DNA of 36,371 bases, from assembly GCA_913061155.1 (NCBI GenBank), contig CAJXSI010000001.1, positions 77,955-114,325 of the forward strand, read 5' to 3'. Source of the DNA: an uncultured Alphaproteobacteria bacterium. GTDB lineage: Bacteria > Pseudomonadota > Alphaproteobacteria > UBA7879 > VGCX01. Of the stretch, positions 3,026 to 25,940 are shown piece after piece; within the stretch, counting starts at the first letter, position 1, and each line of letters starts with the position of its first letter. The notes beneath the pieces are model-generated. The model had not been told where the DNA came from and ran no database searches. It saw only the letters and a list, made by a program, of their open reading frames with translations. The position numbers were made by a program, and so were the translations under genes.

Positions 3026-6000
3026 ATGACGCACATGAACGACGATAGCATCAAACAAAAACAAGCCATAATAAAGGCTGTTGTTGATTCTTCAAAAATA
3101 AAAGCAAAAGAAATTAATTCTTTTAGCTCTATTTTATACTCTGGAATAAGTTCAAACGAGATAGCTGAAATGGAAAAGGCTAAGCTTACAGAGTTTCTGA
3201 AAGAAAGCTGGAAAGAATTTCAAAACCGCAAAGAATATAACATTTCCGTCGTGCCAGTTCATAATAAGAAAGAAGATCTTTCCTATACACAAATAATTAT
3301 TTTAAATAGAAACAAACCTTTCCTTGTGGATTCGATTACTTCCTTAATTAATGGTTTAGGTTTCAATATTAATTTCTTAATTCATCCTGTTATAAGGGTT
3401 AATCGATCCAAAAAGGGGGATCTTGATTCTTTTTCTGTCCCTGAAGTCAAACAAGTGGATATAGAGGCTGAGTCAATAGTATGCATTGAACTGCAAGAGT
3501 ATTTAGAAAAAGAAGAAGTATCTGATCTAAAAAAATCGATTAATAATGTTCTTGATGATGTCCGCCGATCAGTGAAAGACTGGCATAAAATGCGTAAGAA
3601 ACTTACGAATGCTTTGTTTGACCTTGATTCAAGAAAACTGTCTTGTAAAAAATATTCGAATATAGAAATTCAATCTTTTCTTCAATGGTTGGATAGGGGG
3701 TATTTCACCTTTTTGGGCTATCGGGAATATGACCTTGATAAAAAAGGATATGCAAACCTAACGGATGCCTTAGGTTTGTTGAAAAATTTCAAGCAGAGCC
3801 TTTTTACAGGCTCTGTCAAAGACGATCAAATGATTGTCCAAGAACGTATGATGAAAGATATTTCCCCCTTTGATATCACCAAAACTCTTCGCAATTCGAC
3901 GGTACACCGGGCGGTTTCTATGGATGTAATCCGCGTTGCAAAAGTTGATAAAGATGGAAATATAATTGGCGAACGGCAATTTTTTGGCTTATTCACATCG
4001 GCTGTGTATAACCGAAGTATCAGGGATATTCCTTTATTACGCCAAAAAGTTCAGAATGTTTTGTCAAAATCAAATGTCGCAGCAGACTGGCATGATGGGA
4101 AAGCTTTGACCCATATTATGGAATCTTTCCCCAGGGACGAGCTTTTTCAAATAGACGAAGAAAAATTGCTTAAAACAACCCAATCAATTGTTCAGCTGCA
4201 AGAACGCCAGAGGGTCGCATTGTATATGCGCCAAGATAAACTAGGGCATATTATTTCTTGCTTGGTTTACGTGCCACGTGATAGGTACACGTCTGATTTA
4301 CGACAGAAATTTTCAGGTATTCTTGAAAAGAGTCTTGAGGCGAAAACGTTAAGTTTCCATACAGAAATTGGCGGAAACCTTTCTTTCGCGCGGGTTAATT
4401 TCATTTTGTCCCCCCGATCATTAAAAACAAAAACAAAAGTTTCCTTAAAAAATCTTGAAAGTGATTTGGAATCTGCCTCTATGCGGTGGGAAGACTTGTT
4501 TATAAAGCAGGCCAAGAAAGAATTCCTAAGATCACAATCTAAAAAAATGATTGAACAGTACGTTCATGCGTTTCCGACTTCTTATCAGGAGTCTTTTAGT
4601 GTTGAAAGTGCCTTTGCCGATATTGGTTTTGCAGAAAAAGCCCTTCAAGAAAATAAATTAAAAATACAATTTTATGACTTTAAAAACAAAGGTAAGCCAG
4701 AGTTTTTATTAAAGCTTTATAACCCAGGGTCTGCAATTGTTTTGTCTTCTATTATGCCGATTTTGGAAAATATGGGGCTTCGGGTTATAACAGAGTCCCC
4801 GTATTCTTTGAAGGTTGGAAAAGAAGGCGCCAATATATGGATGCACTGTTTCAGAACACAATTCAGAGTTGAATGCTCTAGCTTTATCTTTGATGATATT
4901 GCCGATAACTTTGTGGAATGTCTTAATAAGGTTTGGCAAGGGGAAGCTGAAAATGATTGTTTCAATGCTTTGGTTGTGGAAACAGGCCTGGATTGGCGTC
5001 AAATAAGTTTACTTAGGGCTTACTATAAATACCTTCGGCAGATTCATTTTTCATTCGAAAAAGATTTTGTTAAAGATACTTTTAGTCAGCACCCAAAAAT
5101 AACATTGTCCCTGGTACATCTTTTTGAAAGCCTTTTTAACCTAGAGACAAAAATGCTGGCAAAAGAAACTGTTCAAAAAAAGATTTCGGCCATAAAAAGT
5201 TCTTTGGAACGGGTATCAAGTGCCAATAGTGACCATGTCTTTAGAAGTTTTTTGAATTTAATTACCGTAACAATTCGGACAAATTATTATCGGAAAGACA
5301 AGTCAGGCCATCACAGAAATTTCTTGTCCTTCAAGTTCAACAGTGCGGAAATTACGGGCTTGGTTCGACCGCGTCCGGCATACGAAATATATGTTTATTC
5401 ATCTTGGATGGAAGCCATTCACCTAAGGGGTGGCAAAGTTGCCAGAGGGGGTATTCGTTGGTCTGATCGATCAGAAGATTACCGTACTGAAGTTCTGGGG
5501 CTGTTAAAAGCACAAATGGTTAAAAACAGTGTTATTATTCCGGTTGGGGCAAAGGGTGGATTTATAATTAAAAAATCCCTTGATGGCATGACTTATCCTG
5601 AACGTCAAAAAGAAGCAATCCATTGTTATAAAACAATGATCAGGGGCCTTTTTGATGTAACAGATAACTTGGTTAATGGAAAAATTGAATCCCCTGAAGG
5701 GGTAAGATGCCTTGATGATGCAGATCATTATTTGGTTGTGGCTGCAGATAAAGGAACAGCAACCTTTTCTGATATCGCAAATGAAGTGGCGGCGGAATAT
5801 AATTTTTGGATAGGCGATGCCTTTGCTTCGGGTGGATCTGTTGGATATGATCATAAGAAAATGGGAATCACCGCAAAGGGGGCATGGGTTTCTGTCATGC
5901 GCCACTTTAGGGAATTAGGGGTTAATACCCAGAAAGATCCGTTCTCTGTTGTTGGTGTTGGGGATATGTCAGGGGATGTCTTTGGAAATGGAATGCTGTT

Positions 6001-7828
6001 ATCAAAGAAAATAAAATTAATTGCCAGTTTTAACCACTTGCATATTTTTATTGATCCAAATCCTGATCTTGAAAAAAGCTATAAAGAAAGAAGTCGACTT
6101 TTTAAATTACCTAGGTCTTCATGGGGGGATTATGATCAGTCATGCCTTTCCAAGGGGGGCATGATTATAGACAGAGCTTCGAAAAAAGTAAAACTCACCC
6201 CCGAAGTTTCAGCCATCTTATCCTTTCATAAATCTGAGGTCACGCCTAACGAACTTATTCAAGTTTTGTTAAAAGCGCATGTTGATTTATTGTGGTTCGG
6301 TGGGATCGGTACGTTTATTAAATCTGAAGATGAAAGTCACCATGATGTTGGGGATCGTGTGAATGATGCCATTCGTGTGAATGCTTCGGATTTAAGGTGT
6401 AAAGTTGTTGGGGAAGGGGCTAACTTAGGGGTGACCCAACGGGCGCGCATTGAATATTCTTTGGGCGGTGGCTTCATTAATACAGATGCGATTGATAACT
6501 CTGCCGGCGTGGATACATCAGATCACGAAGTTAATATCAAGATTTTATTACAAGATCCTAAGATAAAGAAAACGTTATCAGAAGGTAAAAGAAAAACGCT
6601 ACTGACATCAATGACAGATCATATTGCCGAATTGGTTCTAAGGAATAATTATTTACAATCACAGGCTGTTTCTATGGTTCATTCAAGGGGATACCGCGTA
6701 TTGGGGCGCCAAAGCCGACTTATGCGATCTATTGAAAAAATGGGCAAGCTGGACCGTGATGTTGAATATTTACCAAATGAAAAGTCTTTGAGCAAAAGAA
6801 CCCTTAGTCGCACAGGTCTTTCAAGACCAGAAATTGCCGTTTTGCTGGCTTATGGAAAGATATTCGCCTATGAACAAATAATTGAATCAAGCCTTCCTAA
6901 AAACAAGTTTTTGAAACACACTTTATATGATTATTTTCCAGAAAATATAAATAAAAAATATGCTGCATCCATTGACAAGCACCCTTTGCGGGATGAAATT
7001 ATCTCTACGAATATAGCCAATAGCCTTGTAAACAGGGTTGGCCCAACATTCTTAAATGAAATGATGGATATTTCAGGGGCAAAATTAACAGAAGTTATTC
7101 ATGCCTACCTGGTTGTCAAAGAAAGCTTTGGGCTTGAAAGTTTTTGGACAGATATTGAAGGTTTAGATTATAAAATCCCAGCAGATATACAAATGCAAAT
7201 GCTGATAGATATTGTTGAGCTTATTGAAAAAAATGTTCTATGGTTACTGCATAAAAATAAATCACTTGATTTAGAGGGGTGCGTCAAACTTTACTCTAAG
7301 AAAGTGAATGAATTGCATAAATGTGCGGGGAAAAATTTGTCCAGCATTGTTTCTTTGGCAATAAGTAAAAAGCAAGACGGCTATAAACAAAAGCAAGTTC
7401 CGGCAGAAATTGCTGAGAAATTTTCTGAATTAAACCTTATGAATTATGCCTATTTATTAATTGATTTATCAATCAGTACCAAGGTAGGCATAGAAAAAAC
7501 ATCACAGATGTTTCATAAAATAGGGGATAGATTGGGAATAGATTGGCTGTTATCAGAGCTTAAAAAACAATCGTCTGAAAATACGTGGACAAAAAAGGCA
7601 CTGTATAATCTGAGGGATCAACTTATAGAAATTAAAGACAAAATATGTTTCAAACTTTTGACACATTATAAAGACCTATCGATGGACGAGGCGATTGAAA
7701 CTTGGTTGCGCCAGAATAATTATTTGGCAGAAAAAACAGAAGAAGTTCTGGAAAGTTTGAAAGATAATGATAAAATCGACCCAACAATGTTGTATGTGGC
7801 GGTTCGTCAGCTTGCATCACTTGTTTAA
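3026..7828 (+). CDS. NAD-specific glutamate dehydrogenase, large (GDH-180-type) class
   Basis: 1600 aa; RGGIRWSDRSEDYRTEVLGLLKAQMVKNSVIIPVGAKGGF and VVGVGDMSGDVFGNGML, characteristic of the ~1600-aa bacterial NAD-GDH family. Confidence 0.96.
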   Translation: MTHMNDDSIKQKQAIIKAVVDSSKIKAKEINSFSSILYSGISSNEIAEMEKAKLTEFLKESWKEFQNRKEYNISVVPVHNKKEDLSYTQIIILNRNKPFLVDSITSLINGLGFNINFLIHPVIRVNRSKKGDLDSFSVPEVKQVDIEAESIVCIELQEYLEKEEVSDLKKSINNVLDDVRRSVKDWHKMRKKLTNALFDLDSRKLSCKKYSNIEIQSFLQWLDRGYFTFLGYREYDLDKKGYANLTDALGLLKNFKQSLFTGSVKDDQMIVQERMMKDISPFDITKTLRNSTVHRAVSMDVIRVAKVDKDGNIIGERQFFGLFTSAVYNRSIRDIPLLRQKVQNVLSKSNVAADWHDGKALTHIMESFPRDELFQIDEEKLLKTTQSIVQLQERQRVALYMRQDKLGHIISCLVYVPRDRYTSDLRQKFSGILEKSLEAKTLSFHTEIGGNLSFARVNFILSPRSLKTKTKVSLKNLESDLESASMRWEDLFIKQAKKEFLRSQSKKMIEQYVHAFPTSYQESFSVESAFADIGFAEKALQENKLKIQFYDFKNKGKPEFLLKLYNPGSAIVLSSIMPILENMGLRVITESPYSLKVGKEGANIWMHCFRTQFRVECSSFIFDDIADNFVECLNKVWQGEAENDCFNALVVETGLDWRQISLLRAYYKYLRQIHFSFEKDFVKDTFSQHPKITLSLVHLFESLFNLETKMLAKETVQKKISAIKSSLERVSSANSDHVFRSFLNLITVTIRTNYYRKDKSGHHRNFLSFKFNSAEITGLVRPRPAYEIYVYSSWMEAIHLRGGKVARGGIRWSDRSEDYRTEVLGLLKAQMVKNSVIIPVGAKGGFIIKKSLDGMTYPERQKEAIHCYKTMIRGLFDVTDNLVNGKIESPEGVRCLDDADHYLVVAADKGTATFSDIANEVAAEYNFWIGDAFASGGSVGYDHKKMGITAKGAWVSVMRHFRELGVNTQKDPFSVVGVGDMSGDVFGNGMLLSKKIKLIASFNHLHIFIDPNPDLEKSYKERSRLFKLPRSSWGDYDQSCLSKGGMIIDRASKKVKLTPEVSAILSFHKSEVTPNELIQVLLKAHVDLLWFGGIGTFIKSEDESHHDVGDRVNDAIRVNASDLRCKVVGEGANLGVTQRARIEYSLGGGFINTDAIDNSAGVDTSDHEVNIKILLQDPKIKKTLSEGKRKTLLTSMTDHIAELVLRNNYLQSQAVSMVHSRGYRVLGRQSRLMRSIEKMGKLDRDVEYLPNEKSLSKRTLSRTGLSRPEIAVLLAYGKIFAYEQIIESSLPKNKFLKHTLYDYFPENINKKYAASIDKHPLRDEIISTNIANSLVNRVGPTFLNEMMDISGAKLTEVIHAYLVVKESFGLESFWTDIEGLDYKIPADIQMQMLIDIVELIEKNVLWLLHKNKSLDLEGCVKLYSKKVNELHKCAGKNLSSIVSLAISKKQDGYKQKQVPAEIAEKFSELNLMNYAYLLIDLSISTKVGIEKTSQMFHKIGDRLGIDWLLSELKKQSSENTWTKKALYNLRDQLIEIKDKICFKLLTHYKDLSMDEAIETWLRQNNYLAEKTEEVLESLKDNDKIDPTMLYVAVRQLASLV

Positions 7829-11921: not shown

Positions 11922-12088
11922 TTAATTTTTAACCTTTTATTTAAGCAATAGTCGCCACTTATTATTTTTGGGCGTTCCATTATCTTATAATTACTGTAAA
12001 TATACATTTGATTCTTTAAAAAAAGTTCACACTTATTACAAAAGTAACTGTTTTGTTATCTTATAATTACGTGAATATAATATTCAGT

Positions 12089-12117
12089 TTGACCTTATTG
12101 GCCGACATATATACCAT
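12089..12117 (+). promoter_or_regulatory. Putative sigma70-type promoter of amiC
   Basis: TTGACC (12089-12094), 17-nt spacer, TACCAT (12112-12117). Confidence 0.4.
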
Positions 12118-12163
12118 ACAACTATTGAGGGGGATTGTACAATCCCAAAAATTAATTATAGGT

Positions 12164-13312
12164 ATGAGGCAAGTCATCCGAAAAATACTCTTACTTATTC
12201 TGGTTATTATATACACAGGAATTCCTTCTGCTGGGTTGGCGCAAAAAATATTAAATGTGCGTTCAGGCGATCAAGGAAAGTTTACCCGTGTCGTTATTGA
12301 TACCACAAACCGCCCTGATTTCAAAAGCACTGTGAATGAAGGGGGGGGTAGTATCAGTGCTTTTATGCCTTCTGTTACCTTTTCTAAATTCAAAGCTCCT
12401 CCTGCTGTTGGAGGTATAAAAAATATTGAAATTATTGATTTACCAAATGGCATGGGGCAGATTTTATTAAAGTTGAAAAATACAGGCCAGATCAAACAGA
12501 CGTTTGTTTTGCCACCCAAAGGGGATATCAAGCATTTTCGGTATGTTATTGATGTTATGACAGGGCCGAAAAAGCCAAAAACCTTGATTAAAAAGCAAAA
12601 AAGTTGCCACAAAAAAGTAAGAAGGATAATAAAGAAGAAAGTGATTGTCATTGACCCAGGGCACGGTGGAAAAGATCCGGGGGCCATCGGACGCAGGGGG
12701 ATTAAGGAAAAAGATGTAACCCTTAGTGTGGCGCTGCAACTTGAAAAGCATTTAAATGCCACAGGATTGTATGATGTCTACTTAACCCGCAGAACAGATA
12801 AATTTTTAAGGTTAGGCCAACGTGTGGCTTTTGCCCGTAAACGCAAAGCAGACTTCTTTATTTCGTTGCATGCAGATAGCCATCCAAGAAAAGATACAAG
12901 GGGCTTATCTGTTTATACCTTATCAAGGGTGGCTTCTGATAAAGAGGCAGAGAAATTGGCCATCAAGGAAAACAAAGCGGATCTGATTGATGGGGTGGAT
13001 TTAAATACGGAATCCCCCGAAGTTGCCAATATTTTAATTGATTTGGTTAAAAGGGAAACAATGAATTTATCCGCCAAATTTGCGTATAATTTAATTAAAG
13101 AACTAAGTACATATGTGCTATTGTTAAGAAACACACATCGTTTTGCCAATTTTGCTGTATTGCGCACACCAGATTTACCAGGGGTTTTGGTTGAAATGGG
13201 ATACATTTCAAATAAGCAAGATGAAAAACTTTTAACCACGCCCAGGTATTGTAATCGCCTTTGCGAAGGTATTGTGAAATCAGTCAAAAGTTATTTTGCA
13301 GTAAATAGTTAA
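12164..13312 (+). CDS. amiC: N-acetylmuramoyl-L-alanine amidase with N-terminal AMIN-like domain (the track ORF starts at 12053)
   Basis: VIDPGHGGKDPGAIG, FFISLHADS and VLVEMGYISN motifs of Amidase_3; signal peptide MRQVIRKILLLILVIIYTGIPSAGLAQ begins at ATG 12164. Confidence 0.92.
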   Translation: MRQVIRKILLLILVIIYTGIPSAGLAQKILNVRSGDQGKFTRVVIDTTNRPDFKSTVNEGGGSISAFMPSVTFSKFKAPPAVGGIKNIEIIDLPNGMGQILLKLKNTGQIKQTFVLPPKGDIKHFRYVIDVMTGPKKPKTLIKKQKSCHKKVRRIIKKKVIVIDPGHGGKDPGAIGRRGIKEKDVTLSVALQLEKHLNATGLYDVYLTRRTDKFLRLGQRVAFARKRKADFFISLHADSHPRKDTRGLSVYTLSRVASDKEAEKLAIKENKADLIDGVDLNTESPEVANILIDLVKRETMNLSAKFAYNLIKELSTYVLLLRNTHRFANFAVLRTPDLPGVLVEMGYISNKQDEKLLTTPRYCNRLCEGIVKSVKSYFAVNS

Positions 13313-18454: not shown

Positions 18455-18985
18455 TTATTTTCTGTCCTTCAACAGTTGATTCATTCTTTCCCAGTGTTGG
18501 GTGAAATAAATTTCAAACCATTTTGTGAACTTTCTGTGATTATCAACTTCTTTTTTGATATCTTCCAAACGTACCCATTTATAATCTTCAACCTCCATCG
18601 GGTTTGGATTAATGGGGCCTTCATAAGTTCCTGAAACGATATGCACATATTCATGTTCAGTTAGGCCGTTATCAAAAGGGGCTTTATATGTAATTGAAAA
18701 ATTTTCTTTTAAAGAACAAGTAAATCCCATTTCTTCATTAAGACGCCGTTCGGCCGCCCCAATAACATTTTCACCTGGACGTGGATGACCACAACATGAA
18801 TTTGTCCATAAACCGCCAGAATGATATTTTCCAGAATATCTTTTGTGAAGTAAGGTTTCCCCTTTTGTATTAAAAACAAAAACAGAAAAGGCCCGATGCA
18901 ATAAGGCTTTTTCATGGGCCTCTATTTTTTCACACTGTCCGATTTCTTGATCATCTTTGTCGACTAAAATAACATGTTCTTGCAT
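18455..18985 (-). CDS. idi: Isopentenyl-diphosphate delta-isomerase, type I (NUDIX fold)
   Basis: LHRAFSVFVFNTKGETLLHKR, GLWTNSCCGHPRPGE, AAERRLNEEMGF; the likely start ATG overlaps the polA stop (TAATG); the track ORF starts at 19003. Confidence 0.93.
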   Translation of the reverse strand: MQEHVILVDKDDQEIGQCEKIEAHEKALLHRAFSVFVFNTKGETLLHKRYSGKYHSGGLWTNSCCGHPRPGENVIGAAERRLNEEMGFTCSLKENFSITYKAPFDNGLTEHEYVHIVSGTYEGPINPNPMEVEDYKWVRLEDIKKEVDNHRKFTKWFEIYFTQHWERMNQLLKDRK

Positions 18986-21708
18986 TAATGTGCCTCTGCC
19001 CAATTATCCCCAGTCCCTGAATCAACTTTTAAGGGGATCGATAGTTTATAAATATTTTCCATCAAGTCTGTCATAACTTTTATTATTTTTTCTACCTGAT
19101 TTTCAGGCACCTCGAAAATTAATTCATCATGAACTTGCAGTAATAATTTTGCATCCAGCTGATTTTCCTTTAAAACGTTTTCAGTCTGATTCATCGCTTT
19201 TTTGATAATATCCGCATTGCTTCCTTGTAAGGGAGCGTTAATGGCTTGGCGTTCTGCAAACCCACGAAACGCCCCATTTTTTGAATGAATATTGGGGACA
19301 TAGCAGCGACGGCCAGACAGGGTTAATACATGACCATGGGCCCGGGCATACGCAACCATATCGTCCATATATTTTTGAATCCCGGGGTATTGGATATTAT
19401 AGGCTTTAATATAATTACTGGCTTCCCCCCGGCTGATGCCCAGTTGACGCGCAAGACCAAAGGCACTGATACCATAAATAATACCAAAGTTAATCGCTTT
19501 GGCCCGACTTCGGATATCAGGGGTTATCTTTTCCAAAGGAATTCCAAATACTTGGCTGGCTGTTAAGGCGTGAATATCCTGGCCATTTAAGAAGGCTTGT
19601 TTTAATTCTTTAATATCTGCAAAATGGGCCAGTAACCTTAATTCAATTTGGGAATAATCAAACGAGACTAATTTCATCCCTTTTTCTGTAATAAAAGCCT
19701 GGCGAATTTTGCGTCCTTCAGGGGTGCGAATGGGAATATTTTGTAAGTTTGGATCCGATGATGCCAGGCGTCCTGTCGTTGTTCCTGCCATTGAAAAAGA
19801 GGTGTGAACCCGTTTCGTCACGGGATTAATATCATCAACCAAAGCTTCGGTATACGTATTAATAAGTTTGGCCATTTGGCGCCATTTCAAGATCAAGGCC
19901 GGCAAATCATGGTCAAGGGCCAGGGCTTCCAGAACATCAACACCTGTTGCGTAAGCCCCAGATTTTCCTTTTTTTCCTTCGCCAAGTTTCAATTTTGTAA
20001 ATAATATTTCCCCCAGTTGCTTTGGGGATCCAATATTAAATTCTTCCCCAGCTAGGTCATAAATTTTCTTTTCATGTTCTTTTAAATTCGCTGTGAATTC
20101 TTTACTTAATCCCCCCAAAAAAGAAGGGTCAATTTTGAATCCAGTTGCTTCAATTCCCACCAAGGTATCCACCAAGGGGCGGTCAATAATTTCATAAATT
20201 GACGTTAGTTTTTCTTCGAAAATTTGGGGTTTCAAAAGGCTGTAAAGGCGTAAAGTATAATCCGCATCTTCTGCCGCATAGATTGTGGCTTCGGTAATGT
20301 TAACTTGGTCAAAAGTTTTAATATGTTTACTTTTCCCCAGAACTTCCTTGAAAGAAATCATTTTGTGATCAAAATATCTTTTGGCCAATTCATCAAGATT
20401 GTGTGGCCCGGGCGTTAAAAGATAAGATAGTAACATTGTGTCATCATAGGGATGGATACCCACCCCATATTTTTTTAAGACTAACTTGTCATATTTAATA
20501 TTCTGACCGATCTTTAAAAGGGCCGGATTGATCAACAAAGGTTTTAGATGTTGCCATATTATCTCAATAGGCAGTTGCGCATTCTTTTCAGACAATAAAT
20601 CTTGTTCATGATTAATTGGAATATAACAAGCATCCCCTTCAGCCACAGCAAGGGAAATACCAATCAGTTTGGCTTGCATCGCATTCAAAGAATTGGTTTC
20701 TGTATCAATGGCAAAGGTGCCGGCTGCCTGACATTTTTTAACCCATTCGACCAGTTTTTCTTCTGTTTGAACACATTCATACTTTTGTTCTGATTTTGGT
20801 TTGATGGCTTCTTTGGGTTTTGCCCAAACCGCCCCATTAGTATGTTCAAATTTTTTACGGAAGATATTTTCCAAAGATTTAAAGTTTTGCTCTGTTAGAA
20901 ATTCAACAACTTTTTCAAGATCAGGTTGCCCCAAATGCAAAGCGTCCAGGCCTGTATCAAGGGGAACGTTTTCTTCCAGTGTTACAAGCCTTTTTGATAG
21001 GATTGCTTGATCTTTGAATTCAATTAAATTTTCCCGTCGCTTGTTTTGCTTTATGGTATGGGCATTCTCTAAAAGATTTTCAAGCGTCCCAAATTCCTTA
21101 ATAAGGTCTGTTGCCGTTTTGGGGCCAATGCCAGGAACGCCAGGGATATTATCAGAACTATCGCCGGCCAAAGATAAAATATCCAAAACTTTATTGGGGG
21201 GCACGCCAAATTTTTCAATAACTTTTTCTTCATCAATAAAGCGGTTTTTCATGTGGTCATATAAAACAACCTTACCATCATCCACCAGCTGCATTAAATC
21301 TTTGTCTGATGAAACAATCGTAACGTTATATCCTTTGTTGACCGCTCTTTTGGTATAGGTTGCAATCAGGTCATCGGCCTCAAACCCTTCCATTTCAAGC
21401 ATGGGCAGGTCAAAGGCTTTGCAAACTTCGCGAATCAAAGGAAATTGCGGAATAAGGTCTTCGGGGGTTTCCCCACGGTTGGCTTTATAGTCTGGGTAAA
21501 TTTCGTTGCGGAAAGTTTGACGTTTCGCGTCAAAAACAACAGCAATTTTGCTGGCTTCCATTTCCATTAAAAGCCGCGTAATCATATTGGTAAACCCAAG
21601 GACAGCCCCAACAGGCGTGCCATCTTTTCGGGTAAGGGGGGGCATGGCATAAAAGGCCCTAAAAATAAAGCCCGATCCATCAATAAGGTATAAAGTTTCT
21701 TTTGTCAT
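18985..21708 (-). CDS. polA: DNA polymerase I
   Basis: 907 aa; N-terminal 5' nuclease, 3'-5' exonuclease motif FAIDTETNSL, polymerase SFDYSQIELRLLAH and LLQVHDELIFEVP. Confidence 0.98.
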   Translation of the reverse strand: MTKETLYLIDGSGFIFRAFYAMPPLTRKDGTPVGAVLGFTNMITRLLMEMEASKIAVVFDAKRQTFRNEIYPDYKANRGETPEDLIPQFPLIREVCKAFDLPMLEMEGFEADDLIATYTKRAVNKGYNVTIVSSDKDLMQLVDDGKVVLYDHMKNRFIDEEKVIEKFGVPPNKVLDILSLAGDSSDNIPGVPGIGPKTATDLIKEFGTLENLLENAHTIKQNKRRENLIEFKDQAILSKRLVTLEENVPLDTGLDALHLGQPDLEKVVEFLTEQNFKSLENIFRKKFEHTNGAVWAKPKEAIKPKSEQKYECVQTEEKLVEWVKKCQAAGTFAIDTETNSLNAMQAKLIGISLAVAEGDACYIPINHEQDLLSEKNAQLPIEIIWQHLKPLLINPALLKIGQNIKYDKLVLKKYGVGIHPYDDTMLLSYLLTPGPHNLDELAKRYFDHKMISFKEVLGKSKHIKTFDQVNITEATIYAAEDADYTLRLYSLLKPQIFEEKLTSIYEIIDRPLVDTLVGIEATGFKIDPSFLGGLSKEFTANLKEHEKKIYDLAGEEFNIGSPKQLGEILFTKLKLGEGKKGKSGAYATGVDVLEALALDHDLPALILKWRQMAKLINTYTEALVDDINPVTKRVHTSFSMAGTTTGRLASSDPNLQNIPIRTPEGRKIRQAFITEKGMKLVSFDYSQIELRLLAHFADIKELKQAFLNGQDIHALTASQVFGIPLEKITPDIRSRAKAINFGIIYGISAFGLARQLGISRGEASNYIKAYNIQYPGIQKYMDDMVAYARAHGHVLTLSGRRCYVPNIHSKNGAFRGFAERQAINAPLQGSNADIIKKAMNQTENVLKENQLDAKLLLQVHDELIFEVPENQVEKIIKVMTDLMENIYKLSIPLKVDSGTGDNWAEAH

Positions 21709-21853: not shown

Positions 21854-24475
21854 TTGTCAAAGCGCGCATTGCTTTTATTGATCTGTCTTTTAACGACCAT
21901 CAATCCGTGCTGGGCAACCATTTCTGGGCTATCCTTTTCACAAAAAGATCAAAAAACAACAGTTGTATCTGTTGTCACAAGCGAACCAATTAATTTTAAA
22001 ATCACGCCAGAGTCTGATGAAATTATTGTTCTTGGGGGTTTTCGATTTAAAGATTGGCAAGCCCCAGCAGAAGGCAAAGGACAAGGGGCAGTCATTGATT
22101 ATTTCGTAGAAGAATACGAAGATGGATCAGCAGAACTTGTTCTTCATACCAATACAGGCGCACGTGTAAAAGGGGGGAAATTCAATATGAATGGATCTGT
22201 CCCCCAGTACGATATTTTAATTGAAGACGAGGGCGGTCTACCGAAAGGGGAAGGCATCCCAGTTGTGACAAGCGTTCAAGTTGGTAAAAAGGGGCCCTAC
22301 ACTCGGGTTGTCTTTGCCATGAATGATGCCATTGATTTTAATATAAAATACAACAAAGAAGGGGATAAAATTGCCTTTACCCCTGAACGTAGAATTAAGT
22401 GGACGGCGCCAACTTCTGAAAGAAAAGAAATGGGCTTTTTAGGGGGGTATTATTTGGTTGACCTTGGTTCAAAAGTTGGGGTTATTCTTGATGTTCGCCC
22501 TGGAACAAAAGTTGCCAATAGTACAATTTTGGATGCCCAATCCAATGCGCCCAAATACGTCATTGATTTGGCCCCTGCCTCTATGGAAGGGATTGCTGAT
22601 GACATGTTTGATACGGGTGCCAAAAGACCACCCCTTCCTGGAAATATTGGCATGGGAGCTGTTGGCGGAAATAGGGGGTCCCCTGAAAATAAAAATGACC
22701 AGAACGTTCAAAGTATGAATATTTTTACGCAGAACACAGATACAATTATTAACTTTACGACCCAAAAACCGACTGAATTTGATATTACAGAAAATGAATA
22801 TACAAACCAAGTTACTGTTCATTTACCCCGGACAGACTGGACAGCCGTTGAATCAATGGATAAATCGGGTGGGCTTGTTCAAGGGTATAAAGTTGATCAA
22901 TCAGATCCAAATATGACCAATGTTATATTTAGTGTTCAAGAAGGAACCAATGTTATTGGGCGCAAAGTTTCCTCTGGAGGCGAAGGGCAAAATTCAAGAT
23001 TCGTTGTTCATTTGAACCAAGATGAAAATAAATCCCCTGATTGGTTGGTGGATGATTCTGTTGACAAGCTTCCCTATGATGAAGCGCATCGTGAAGAAGT
23101 GCAAACATCGCAAGTTGTTTATAAAGGCGGCGTTTCTGAATATGCGTCGATTGGGGATGGGTTTTATGGTGGTTTGCAAGTTTCTTATTTTGGATCAGAG
23201 CATAAGAATGAAAGTGCAAACACGACACCTGGGGATACGCGTAGTCTAAGATCAGGTTTTACAGGTGTTTCAGGACAGTTCATTATGGGTCTTGGGAAAA
23301 AGATAGATAAATTTTATGCTGGAGGGGAAGTCTTTGCTGGTTATATGGGGGCAAAGCAAGTTCATCAACAGCAACAAGGATCAACCAACATTTCCAGCGA
23401 GGTTATACCCGGTGTTACCTGGGGGGTTGCCGCCCGTGTCGGCCATTACATATCTCCAGTTGCCTTGCTTTATGGGCGTTTGGGTGTGGTATCGACTGAT
23501 TTTTATTTTAGATCAACGGATTCAGCCAGGGGGGATGTGATTTTCCCAAGCAGTTACGCCAAACGGAACAGGACAGGTTTCTTGTATGCGATGGGAATAG
23601 AAACGGCAATCAGTGATCGAACAAGTTTCCGATTTGAAACGGGCCAGATTAACTATCAAGTTTTTTCCCATAAAACCAATTTGGGGGGACGTAACAATTC
23701 AATTGAACACAGGTTTATTATGAACCAACTTTCATTGTCCGCCATTACACATTTAAGCCCAATGTCAGGCCCATCAGCCATCACTTTGTTTGAAGATAGT
23801 GTCGTCCCAGGCTTGTATGTTGGTGGGTTGTTTGGTTTTCGAAATATAACTGAAAAAAGGGAATTGGATGGCCTGACAAACATAATTGGGGGAGCCAGTA
23901 CAAAACTTTATACGGCAGCGGGAAATACAGATCCGGTTTGGGGTTTTTACGCAGGTTATAGCAAGGTTCGCAACCGCTTTGCCTATGCTGGAGAAATGCA
24001 ACTATCACTGACGGGGGCTTTGATTGAAGAATCAATTAACCGTAAAAACGATGGATCTGGAACCGGATTTGGATTGGAATCTTATAAAGATAGATTGCAG
24101 TGGACGTGTGGGTTGGTTGGTAAAGCAGGTTGGATTTTAAATCATGGGGTGACGGCCTGGGCAAAAGCTGGTTTGGTATCAAGTCGATTTAAACGAACAC
24201 CTTACACGACAGGAACGGGTCGATATTTTGCGGCAGCAAAGGGATACAAGAAAAACATTTTTGGTTTAAGAACAGGGGCCGATCTTGAAATTGCCATTAA
24301 CAGAATGATGGGCGTCAGGGGAAGTTGGACATTTGACTATTATCCTGAATTTAAAATCAAAGATGCAAAAAATGGCTCGGTCAAAGAAACTGTTGCCATC
24401 ATGGACAATCGCTTTGGAATAGGTCTGACAGTTTACTTAAGTGAAACACTGACAAAAGCTGGCTTGTTTAGATAA
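21854..24475 (+). CDS. Exported modular protein: three AMIN-like repeats followed by two tandem outer-membrane beta-barrel-like domains
   Basis: 873 aa, TTG start; signal peptide MSKRALLLLICLLTTINPCWA; three repeated beta-rich modules (aa ~24-126, ~136-241, ~287-389); alternating aromatic/glycine strands in two ~200-aa blocks (aa ~435-636, ~651-863). Confidence 0.75.
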   Translation: MSKRALLLLICLLTTINPCWATISGLSFSQKDQKTTVVSVVTSEPINFKITPESDEIIVLGGFRFKDWQAPAEGKGQGAVIDYFVEEYEDGSAELVLHTNTGARVKGGKFNMNGSVPQYDILIEDEGGLPKGEGIPVVTSVQVGKKGPYTRVVFAMNDAIDFNIKYNKEGDKIAFTPERRIKWTAPTSERKEMGFLGGYYLVDLGSKVGVILDVRPGTKVANSTILDAQSNAPKYVIDLAPASMEGIADDMFDTGAKRPPLPGNIGMGAVGGNRGSPENKNDQNVQSMNIFTQNTDTIINFTTQKPTEFDITENEYTNQVTVHLPRTDWTAVESMDKSGGLVQGYKVDQSDPNMTNVIFSVQEGTNVIGRKVSSGGEGQNSRFVVHLNQDENKSPDWLVDDSVDKLPYDEAHREEVQTSQVVYKGGVSEYASIGDGFYGGLQVSYFGSEHKNESANTTPGDTRSLRSGFTGVSGQFIMGLGKKIDKFYAGGEVFAGYMGAKQVHQQQQGSTNISSEVIPGVTWGVAARVGHYISPVALLYGRLGVVSTDFYFRSTDSARGDVIFPSSYAKRNRTGFLYAMGIETAISDRTSFRFETGQINYQVFSHKTNLGGRNNSIEHRFIMNQLSLSAITHLSPMSGPSAITLFEDSVVPGLYVGGLFGFRNITEKRELDGLTNIIGGASTKLYTAAGNTDPVWGFYAGYSKVRNRFAYAGEMQLSLTGALIEESINRKNDGSGTGFGLESYKDRLQWTCGLVGKAGWILNHGVTAWAKAGLVSSRFKRTPYTTGTGRYFAAAKGYKKNIFGLRTGADLEIAINRMMGVRGSWTFDYYPEFKIKDAKNGSVKETVAIMDNRFGIGLTVYLSETLTKAGLFR

Positions 24476-24539
24476 AGTCTTGTCAATTTTTGTGACAAGT
24501 AAGATTTAAAAGTTTAGGGTGATGTCGAAAGGTTTCCTT

Positions 24540-25940
24540 GTGAAAAAAATATTTTTTTTAATCATTACATTTTCTTGCTGTATTTTCGGAATTCAGGCAC
24601 AGGCCAATATATTGATTTCCAAACAAATATCTGCAGCTGATTTGGTGCCGAATGTTGGGGTGGCTGTTTATGATATTGAAAAACAAAAATTGGTTTTGGG
24701 CATTAATGAATTAAGCCTATATACGCCCGCCAGTCTTCAAAAAATAATTACCGCTGTTTTTGTTCTGAATAAATTGAAAAGGGGGTATACCGCCACAACA
24801 AAAATTTATAAAAACAAACAAGGCGATATATTTATACAATTTTCTGGGGATCCAAAATTTTCCTTAAAACACTTAAAAACGCTTCTTAAATCTTTTCAGG
24901 GGCAATCAGTTGGTAAGGTGTGCCTTGTGGATACATCCTATCAATTACCTTTATTATCACCAGGTTGGACCATTGCGGCAACACAACTTTGTTATGGCGC
25001 CCTTACAACAAAGTCATCTATTGGGGGAAACCGTTTGGTGGCCTATGTAACAGCTGGAAAAATTGGAAAACCGGCCCAAATTAAATTCAAAAAAGGCCAA
25101 GTTAATTACCCGATTATAAACCAGACGGTAACAAAAAAGCTTTGTTACACTGATCCGTCCGTTGGGTGGATGGATCAAATGCAACGGGATAACATTGATA
25201 TGACACGGAAAGGGCTGGTTATAAAAGGCTGTGTTCCCCATGACTTTAAAAATTTCAAAGTATGCTTGCCGATCAAACCAGATGATATTGATTATTATTT
25301 AAAGAAAGCTGTTGGACAAGCTTTTGATGAATCCAAAGTATTAATAAAAAAGGGTATTTTTAGGGCGTGCAATATGCCGGCTGGGGCTGTTTTAATATCT
25401 TCAGTTGAATCCCCTTTGTTAATAGATATGATTAAAGACAGTTTGAAAGATTCAGATAATTTTGTAACTGATTCTTTGTTTAAGGCAGCTGTTGATATTG
25501 ATGAATCAAAGTTTCCGGCCAATTGGTCTTTTGCTGGTAAGGTCGTGCGCAAAGAATTAAACCATTTAATGGGGTTGACCTTTACAGACAAGGATTTAAA
25601 AATTGAAGATGGCTCTGGATTGTCCATGTATAATCGTGTGTCGGCTAAGGCCCTGTCGCAGTTATTGGCAAAGATGCACCAAAAAGATTCCGGGTTTTAT
25701 AAAATGTTACCAAGGGCAGGGACAGATGGGACATTGACAGATCGCTTGAAAAGCGTAAAGGGAAAGATTTGGGCCAAGACGGGGACGCTGAATGGCATTA
25801 ATACCTTGGCAGGGTATATCGTAAAAAATGGCCACCCGAAATATAGCTTTGCCATTATGATTAATGGGCCAACAGATCAGCTCACCCGTAATAAAAACTT
25901 AATCGATCAAATTGTAAGATCTTTAACGGATTCTTTTTAA
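24540..25940 (+). CDS. dacB: D-alanyl-D-alanine carboxypeptidase/endopeptidase (PBP4 family); the track ORF starts at 24519
   Basis: YTPASLQKIITA (SxxK), EDGSGLSMYNRVSAKAL, GKIWAKTGTLNGINTLAGYI (KTG); signal peptide from GTG 24540 or ATG 24522. Confidence 0.9.
   Translation: MKKIFFLIITFSCCIFGIQAQANILISKQISAADLVPNVGVAVYDIEKQKLVLGINELSLYTPASLQKIITAVFVLNKLKRGYTATTKIYKNKQGDIFIQFSGDPKFSLKHLKTLLKSFQGQSVGKVCLVDTSYQLPLLSPGWTIAATQLCYGALTTKSSIGGNRLVAYVTAGKIGKPAQIKFKKGQVNYPIINQTVTKKLCYTDPSVGWMDQMQRDNIDMTRKGLVIKGCVPHDFKNFKVCLPIKPDDIDYYLKKAVGQAFDESKVLIKKGIFRACNMPAGAVLISSVESPLLIDMIKDSLKDSDNFVTDSLFKAAVDIDESKFPANWSFAGKVVRKELNHLMGLTFTDKDLKIEDGSGLSMYNRVSAKALSQLLAKMHQKDSGFYKMLPRAGTDGTLTDRLKSVKGKIWAKTGTLNGINTLAGYIVKNGHPKYSFAIMINGPTDQLTRNKNLIDQIVRSLTDSF

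Follow-up and report, generated by a model that had tools for sequence, protein, structure and literature searches.

The gene at positions 21854-24475 of the window (the complete stretch of 36,371 nucleotides that was analysed) belongs to a small-genome bacterium and codes for an 873-aa protein in which a predicted signal peptide is followed by three AMIN domains, a linker, and two tandem barrels of an outer-membrane type. Each of the six genomes by which the order was sampled encodes an ortholog. We consider it likely, with a probability of about 0.6, that this is an integral outer-membrane protein which serves as a non-covalent tether to the peptidoglycan, a niche otherwise associated with OmpA. 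The two OMP_b-brl barrels would lie next to each other in the outer membrane, their ends being in the periplasm. The N-terminal arm, in which flexible linkers carry two to three AMIN domains, would reach and bind the peptidoglycan, and the repetition of the AMIN domain could provide avidity.

The gene and its neighbourhood

The features of the gene, and those used for comparison, are as follows.

12239..12574 (+): AMIN domain of the window's AmiC amidase (gene 12053-13312; Amidase_3 E 2e-49), comparison reference
21854..24475 (+): gene of the 873-aa protein, with signal peptide, three AMIN domains, linker, and two tandem outer-membrane barrels; orthologs in 6/6 genomes of the order
21854..21916 (+): predicted signal peptide, aa 1-21, ending in NPCWA (read from the sequence by eye)
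21917..22234 (+): AMIN domain 1, aa 22-127 (profile comparison with the AmiC AMIN domain, AlphaFold2, fold matches in the PDB, PilQ-like frames)
22259..22585 (+): AMIN domain 2, aa 136-244 (profile comparison with the AmiC AMIN domain, class-wide amidase frames)
22706..23029 (+): AMIN domain 3, aa 285-392 (profile comparison with the AmiC AMIN domain)
23036..23053 (+): PDWLVD motif, aa 395-400, after the last AMIN domain
23144..23761 (+): barrel 1, aa 431-636, OMP_b-brl type, eight amphipathic strand peaks (Pfam PF13505, profile of stand-alone barrels)
23762..23809 (+): inter-barrel linker, 15-16 aa in all six orthologs
23810..24448 (+): barrel 2, aa 653-865, OMP_b-brl type (profile comparison with barrel 1 and stand-alone barrels)
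24519..25940 (+): S13 D-Ala-D-Ala carboxypeptidase, downstream neighbour

The ORF is opened by TTG, which is also the first in-frame start codon in L002 and L003; it is GTG in L005 (all are putative starts). The divergent neighbour is a large minus-strand ORF (18985-21708), and the genes for AmiC, a class A PBP, and MurJ are found about 3-10 kb upstream. The gene neighbourhood of the ortholog varies between families of the order: an S13-carboxypeptidase-like frame is also located downstream in L002 and L003, and tyrosyl-tRNA-synthetase-like frames are found there in L004 and L005 (translations read by eye). Promoter and terminator scans returned matches at chance level only. Elsewhere in the window, positions 3026-7828 code for an NAD-dependent glutamate dehydrogenase of 1600 aa, which belongs to the large bacterial type.

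The N-terminal AMIN domains

The original prediction had described three AMIN-like segments which resemble each other and the N-terminus of the window's AmiC. All strings quoted in it are present in the ORF. With sub-alignments from the orthologs, hhalign matched segments 1, 2, and 3 to the AmiC AMIN set at 86.7%, 98.8%, and 97.0% (E 6e-17 for segment 2 and 8e-11 for segment 3) and to one another at 84.7-95.1%, which bears out both likenesses. Cross-controls between AMIN and barrel profiles reached 0.1-6.7%. Chance likeness of short motifs is rejected, as profiles with shuffled columns (60 versions per profile) scored well under those observed: 37.0, 94.3, 61.6, and 132.3 against shuffled maxima of 18.2, 20.9, 26.8, and 25.0, respectively.

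The Pfam AMIN model (PF11741) matched the 873-aa protein below its gathering score (best E 0.15, 12.6 vs. 20.5 bits), so the AMIN assignment rests on profile and fold comparison. The best PF11741 match among the orthologs has E 0.025, and the AMIN domain of the window's AmiC is similarly weak in Pfam (E 0.11). A local AMIN model, built from segments 1-3 and AmiC AMIN rows, places the domains at aa 23-125, 137-243, and 285-391, close to the limits predicted originally (24-126, 136-241, and 287-389); as this model includes the query, its scores are not independent. Its count is three AMIN domains for L004, L005, and the window protein, as against two for L006.

For AMIN domain 1, the weakest of the three, AlphaFold2 returned a model with nine strands (pLDDT 83.8, pTM 0.78) from an input of segment 1 together with segments 2 and 3 and the AmiC AMIN domain, all from the window. 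When compared by Foldseek to 350,542 PDB chains, its ranks 1-3 were the PilQ B2 domain (4aqz), AmiC (4bin), and PilQ (4av2), each with probability 1.00, E values of 3.9e-3 to 3.5e-2, and TM-scores of 0.61-0.67 normalized to the query; no match reached E 0.001, and entries below rank 3 were weaker. The top matches of the model are thus the AMIN-bearing structures which one would expect. The AMIN fold which had been anticipated for the N-terminal segments is predicted by this model for domain 1 and suggested by profile comparison for domains 2 and 3.

Database searches with larger samples point in the same direction. Among 387 genomes of the class, positions ~124-260 of the six-row ortholog profile matched many frames of 400-550 aa; those which were read (L007, L008, L044, L045, and L046) show, by eye, an AMIN-type segment and, after it, an amidase-like domain. 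Among 399 genomes of the phylum, positions 7-152 matched frames of 832-851 aa, one of which (L118) is PilQ-like by eye. PDB sequence searches with the protein gave no match, and NCBIfam has no family for it. By profile comparison and these searches, the three N-terminal segments are homologous to the AMIN domains of AmiC and PilQ.

Distribution and other AMIN proteins

The orthologs share 24-42% sequence identity with the window protein over the alignment, the lowest value being that of the most distant ortholog. A survey of domain architectures, as suggested originally, found 2-3 AMIN domains and two barrels in all six genomes of the order, six being the number by which the order was sampled. 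The arm described as triple is triple in the window protein; across the lineage it has two to three domains. Frames that combine AMIN and barrel were not found outside the order in the class and phylum samples (387 and 399 genomes, with up to two candidates scored per genome). A first scan of a contig collection with the protein revealed no relative, and a plasmid collection yielded one weak barrel match only.

The order also has shorter AMIN proteins (L009, L010, L016, and L071), in which one to three AMIN-like stretches but no barrel were recognized, and AmiC-like proteins (L058, L066, L067, and L069 by eye; the window's own AmiC by Pfam). L009 (1405-2691, plus strand, contig C10 of the same genome) is a 429-aa AMIN-repeat protein without barrels. 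A P-x-W-[LV] motif as in the linker of the window protein is found near the C-terminus of the soluble paralogs L009 (P-D-W-V), L016, and L071; the end of L010 is devoid of it. L042 (1510-2400, minus strand) codes for a 297-aa lipoprotein-like protein with a C-terminal AMIN domain above the Pfam cut-off (27.4 vs. 20.5 bits).

These relatives bear on the best-surviving alternative, which is that the protein acts mainly at the division site, its AMIN domains placing it on septal or polar peptidoglycan rather than providing a general tether. It would then couple outer-membrane invagination to AmiC action or compete with AmiC for denuded wall. AMIN domains 2 and 3 are close to that of AmiC, AmiC-like and soluble AMIN proteins are encoded in the same genomes, and it is through AMIN domains that PilQ, an outer-membrane protein, is recruited to division sites (PMC5285504, PMC10653833). 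However, no divisome gene adjoins, and the neighbourhood differs between families of the order. We regard this role as unlikely, while ranking it ahead of the other alternatives. A general tether may itself be enriched at the septum or the poles, because the AMIN domains of AmiC and PilQ prefer septal and polar wall.

The tandem barrels

PF13505 (OMP_b-brl) matched aa 431-607, within barrel 1 (E 3e-6); for barrel 1 only, the score was 27.9 bits in the protein scan, against a cut-off of 28.7, and 30.3 bits in the genome search. The two C-terminal blocks, predicted to be alike, match each other at 99.3% (E 2e-20, 202 columns; hhalign). Seven stand-alone single barrels were matched end to end by barrel 1 (99.6% over 200 columns) and by barrel 2 (99.0% over 202 columns). 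Depending on the threshold, barrel 1 has eight (stricter) to ten (looser) amphipathic peaks and barrel 2 has seven to nine. In the proposed tether, each barrel is probably eight-stranded. The full protein, modelled by AlphaFold2 from its single sequence (pLDDT 33), gave no confident model of the C-terminal half.

It might be that the barrels carry the main function, as a surface adhesin, porin, or receptor, and that the AMIN arm only positions them. OMP_b-brl is a broad family with many functions, and each of the six genomes has at least three matches to it. Nevertheless, AMIN domains and linker make up nearly half of the chain and are kept in all orthologs, and Pfam and NCBIfam revealed no signature of a surface function, which makes this reading improbable.

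We give equally little credence to a C-terminal half that forms a single 16-stranded barrel. In its favour, larger barrels are known to arise by internal duplication, and the AlphaFold2 run gave no confident model of this half. Against it, both halves can be aligned with stand-alone barrels over their whole length, barrel 1 closes with a signature like that of a terminal strand (SYKF, GYKF, or HHF) in five of the six orthologs, 15-16 aa separate the halves, and other proteins (L020, L022, and L099) differ in their number of units. The tandem arrangement originally proposed is therefore upheld as far as each unit matches a complete barrel, with separate closure favoured but not proven.

Tandem OMP_b-brl chains without AMIN domains were found in L020, L022, and L099 (Pfam) and in L031 (by reading). 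In a single chain each, L020 (1504-3990, minus strand) and L022 (1498-3969, minus strand) have a BBP2_2 barrel and, after it, OMP_b-brl barrels, and the 720-aa frame L099 (226-2385, plus strand) has three OMP_b-brl stretches (all by Pfam).

A candidate tether and other envelope ties in the order

The search for alternative ties covered the OmpA domain (PF00691) and YkuD. In the order, PF00691 finds two proteins per genome (six genomes). One is short, lipoprotein-like, and of Pal type (L094 and L120-L124; Pal assignment by eye). The other (L095 and L125-L129; 237-273 aa) combines a hydrophobic helix at the N-terminus with a coiled-coil-like stretch and the OmpA domain. It is too short for a barrel plus OmpA domain and is read by eye as a putative inner-membrane protein. 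An OmpA-type protein with barrel and OmpA domain was thus not found by PF00691 in any of the six genomes, and the window protein and its orthologs do not match PF00691 either. The YkuD L,D-transpeptidase domain was detected in none of the six genomes; as it was also undetected in 40/116 sampled genomes of the class, its absence provides only moderate support.

For a tether we count the identity and fold of the AMIN domains, the barrel matches, the conservation in 6/6 genomes, the lack of any detected YkuD domain, the restriction of OmpA-domain proteins to Pal-type and inner-membrane ones, and the nearby peptidoglycan genes (AmiC, class A PBP, MurJ, and S13 carboxypeptidase). Against it we count the presence of Pal as another link between outer membrane and wall, the low conservation (24% to the most distant ortholog), the sampling of the order by only six genomes, and the fact that lack of YkuD is not unusual in the class. 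Precedents exist for both parts of the proposal. In Pseudomonas, PilQ has AMIN domains that co-sediment with peptidoglycan and that it needs in order to be recruited to division sites (PMC5285504; for PilQ see also PMC10653833), and SlpA connects the outer membrane to the wall in one chain (PMC9388160). Peptidoglycan binding, stoichiometry, topology, localisation, and an effect on envelope stability are inferred. The OmpA/Pal-like tether of the original prediction is plausible and gains support from the conservation and from the lack of detected alternatives in the order.

In the order, the protein would fill the niche held elsewhere by OmpA-type barrels or by proteins linked through L,D-transpeptidases. 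A more tentative proposal, for which we see somewhat less than even odds, is that this lineage-specific protein has taken over from OmpA-type and covalent anchors in the order and is the main integral tie between outer membrane and peptidoglycan there.

Relation to known systems

The PilQ secretin of type IVa pili also carries N-terminal peptidoglycan-binding AMIN repeats on an outer-membrane protein (three in Myxococcus xanthus, two in Pseudomonas aeruginosa; PMC5285504, PMC10653833), and the AMIN 1 model matches PilQ structures. In contrast to PilQ with its multimeric secretin, the 873-aa protein has small barrels; the Pfam secretin domain matched neither it nor its orthologs. With OmpA and Pal it shares an outer-membrane anchor and a (here putative) peptidoglycan-binding periplasmic part, but AMIN domains take the place of the OmpA C-terminal domain, the arm is N-terminal, and there are two barrels. 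SlpA of Deinococcus radiodurans likewise joins an outer-membrane barrel to the cell wall in a single chain (PMC9388160), as is putatively the case here; it differs by its SLH domain, coiled coil, and 30-stranded trimeric barrel. TonB-dependent receptors have AMIN among their N-terminal domain types (PMC6434023); theirs is a large plugged transporter barrel, whereas the 873-aa protein is devoid of a plug. The tandem OMP_b-brl proteins (L020, L022, L031, and L099) also have two or three small barrels per chain but no AMIN arm, and L020 and L022 start with a BBP2_2 barrel.

AMIN domains on outer-membrane proteins (PilQ, some TonB receptors) are therefore known already, and tandem barrels are seen elsewhere. 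The combination of an AMIN arm with tandem small barrels appears to be new; no paper on a fusion of AMIN and small barrels was found in a literature search that covered few subscription papers.

It is an open question how lineages that have neither OmpA-type anchors nor L,D-transpeptidases tie their outer membrane to the wall. If our reading is correct, the protein would represent another such tie, made of domains that are familiar from pilus secretins and amidases, and would provide a defined protein with which the connection between outer membrane and wall can be tested.
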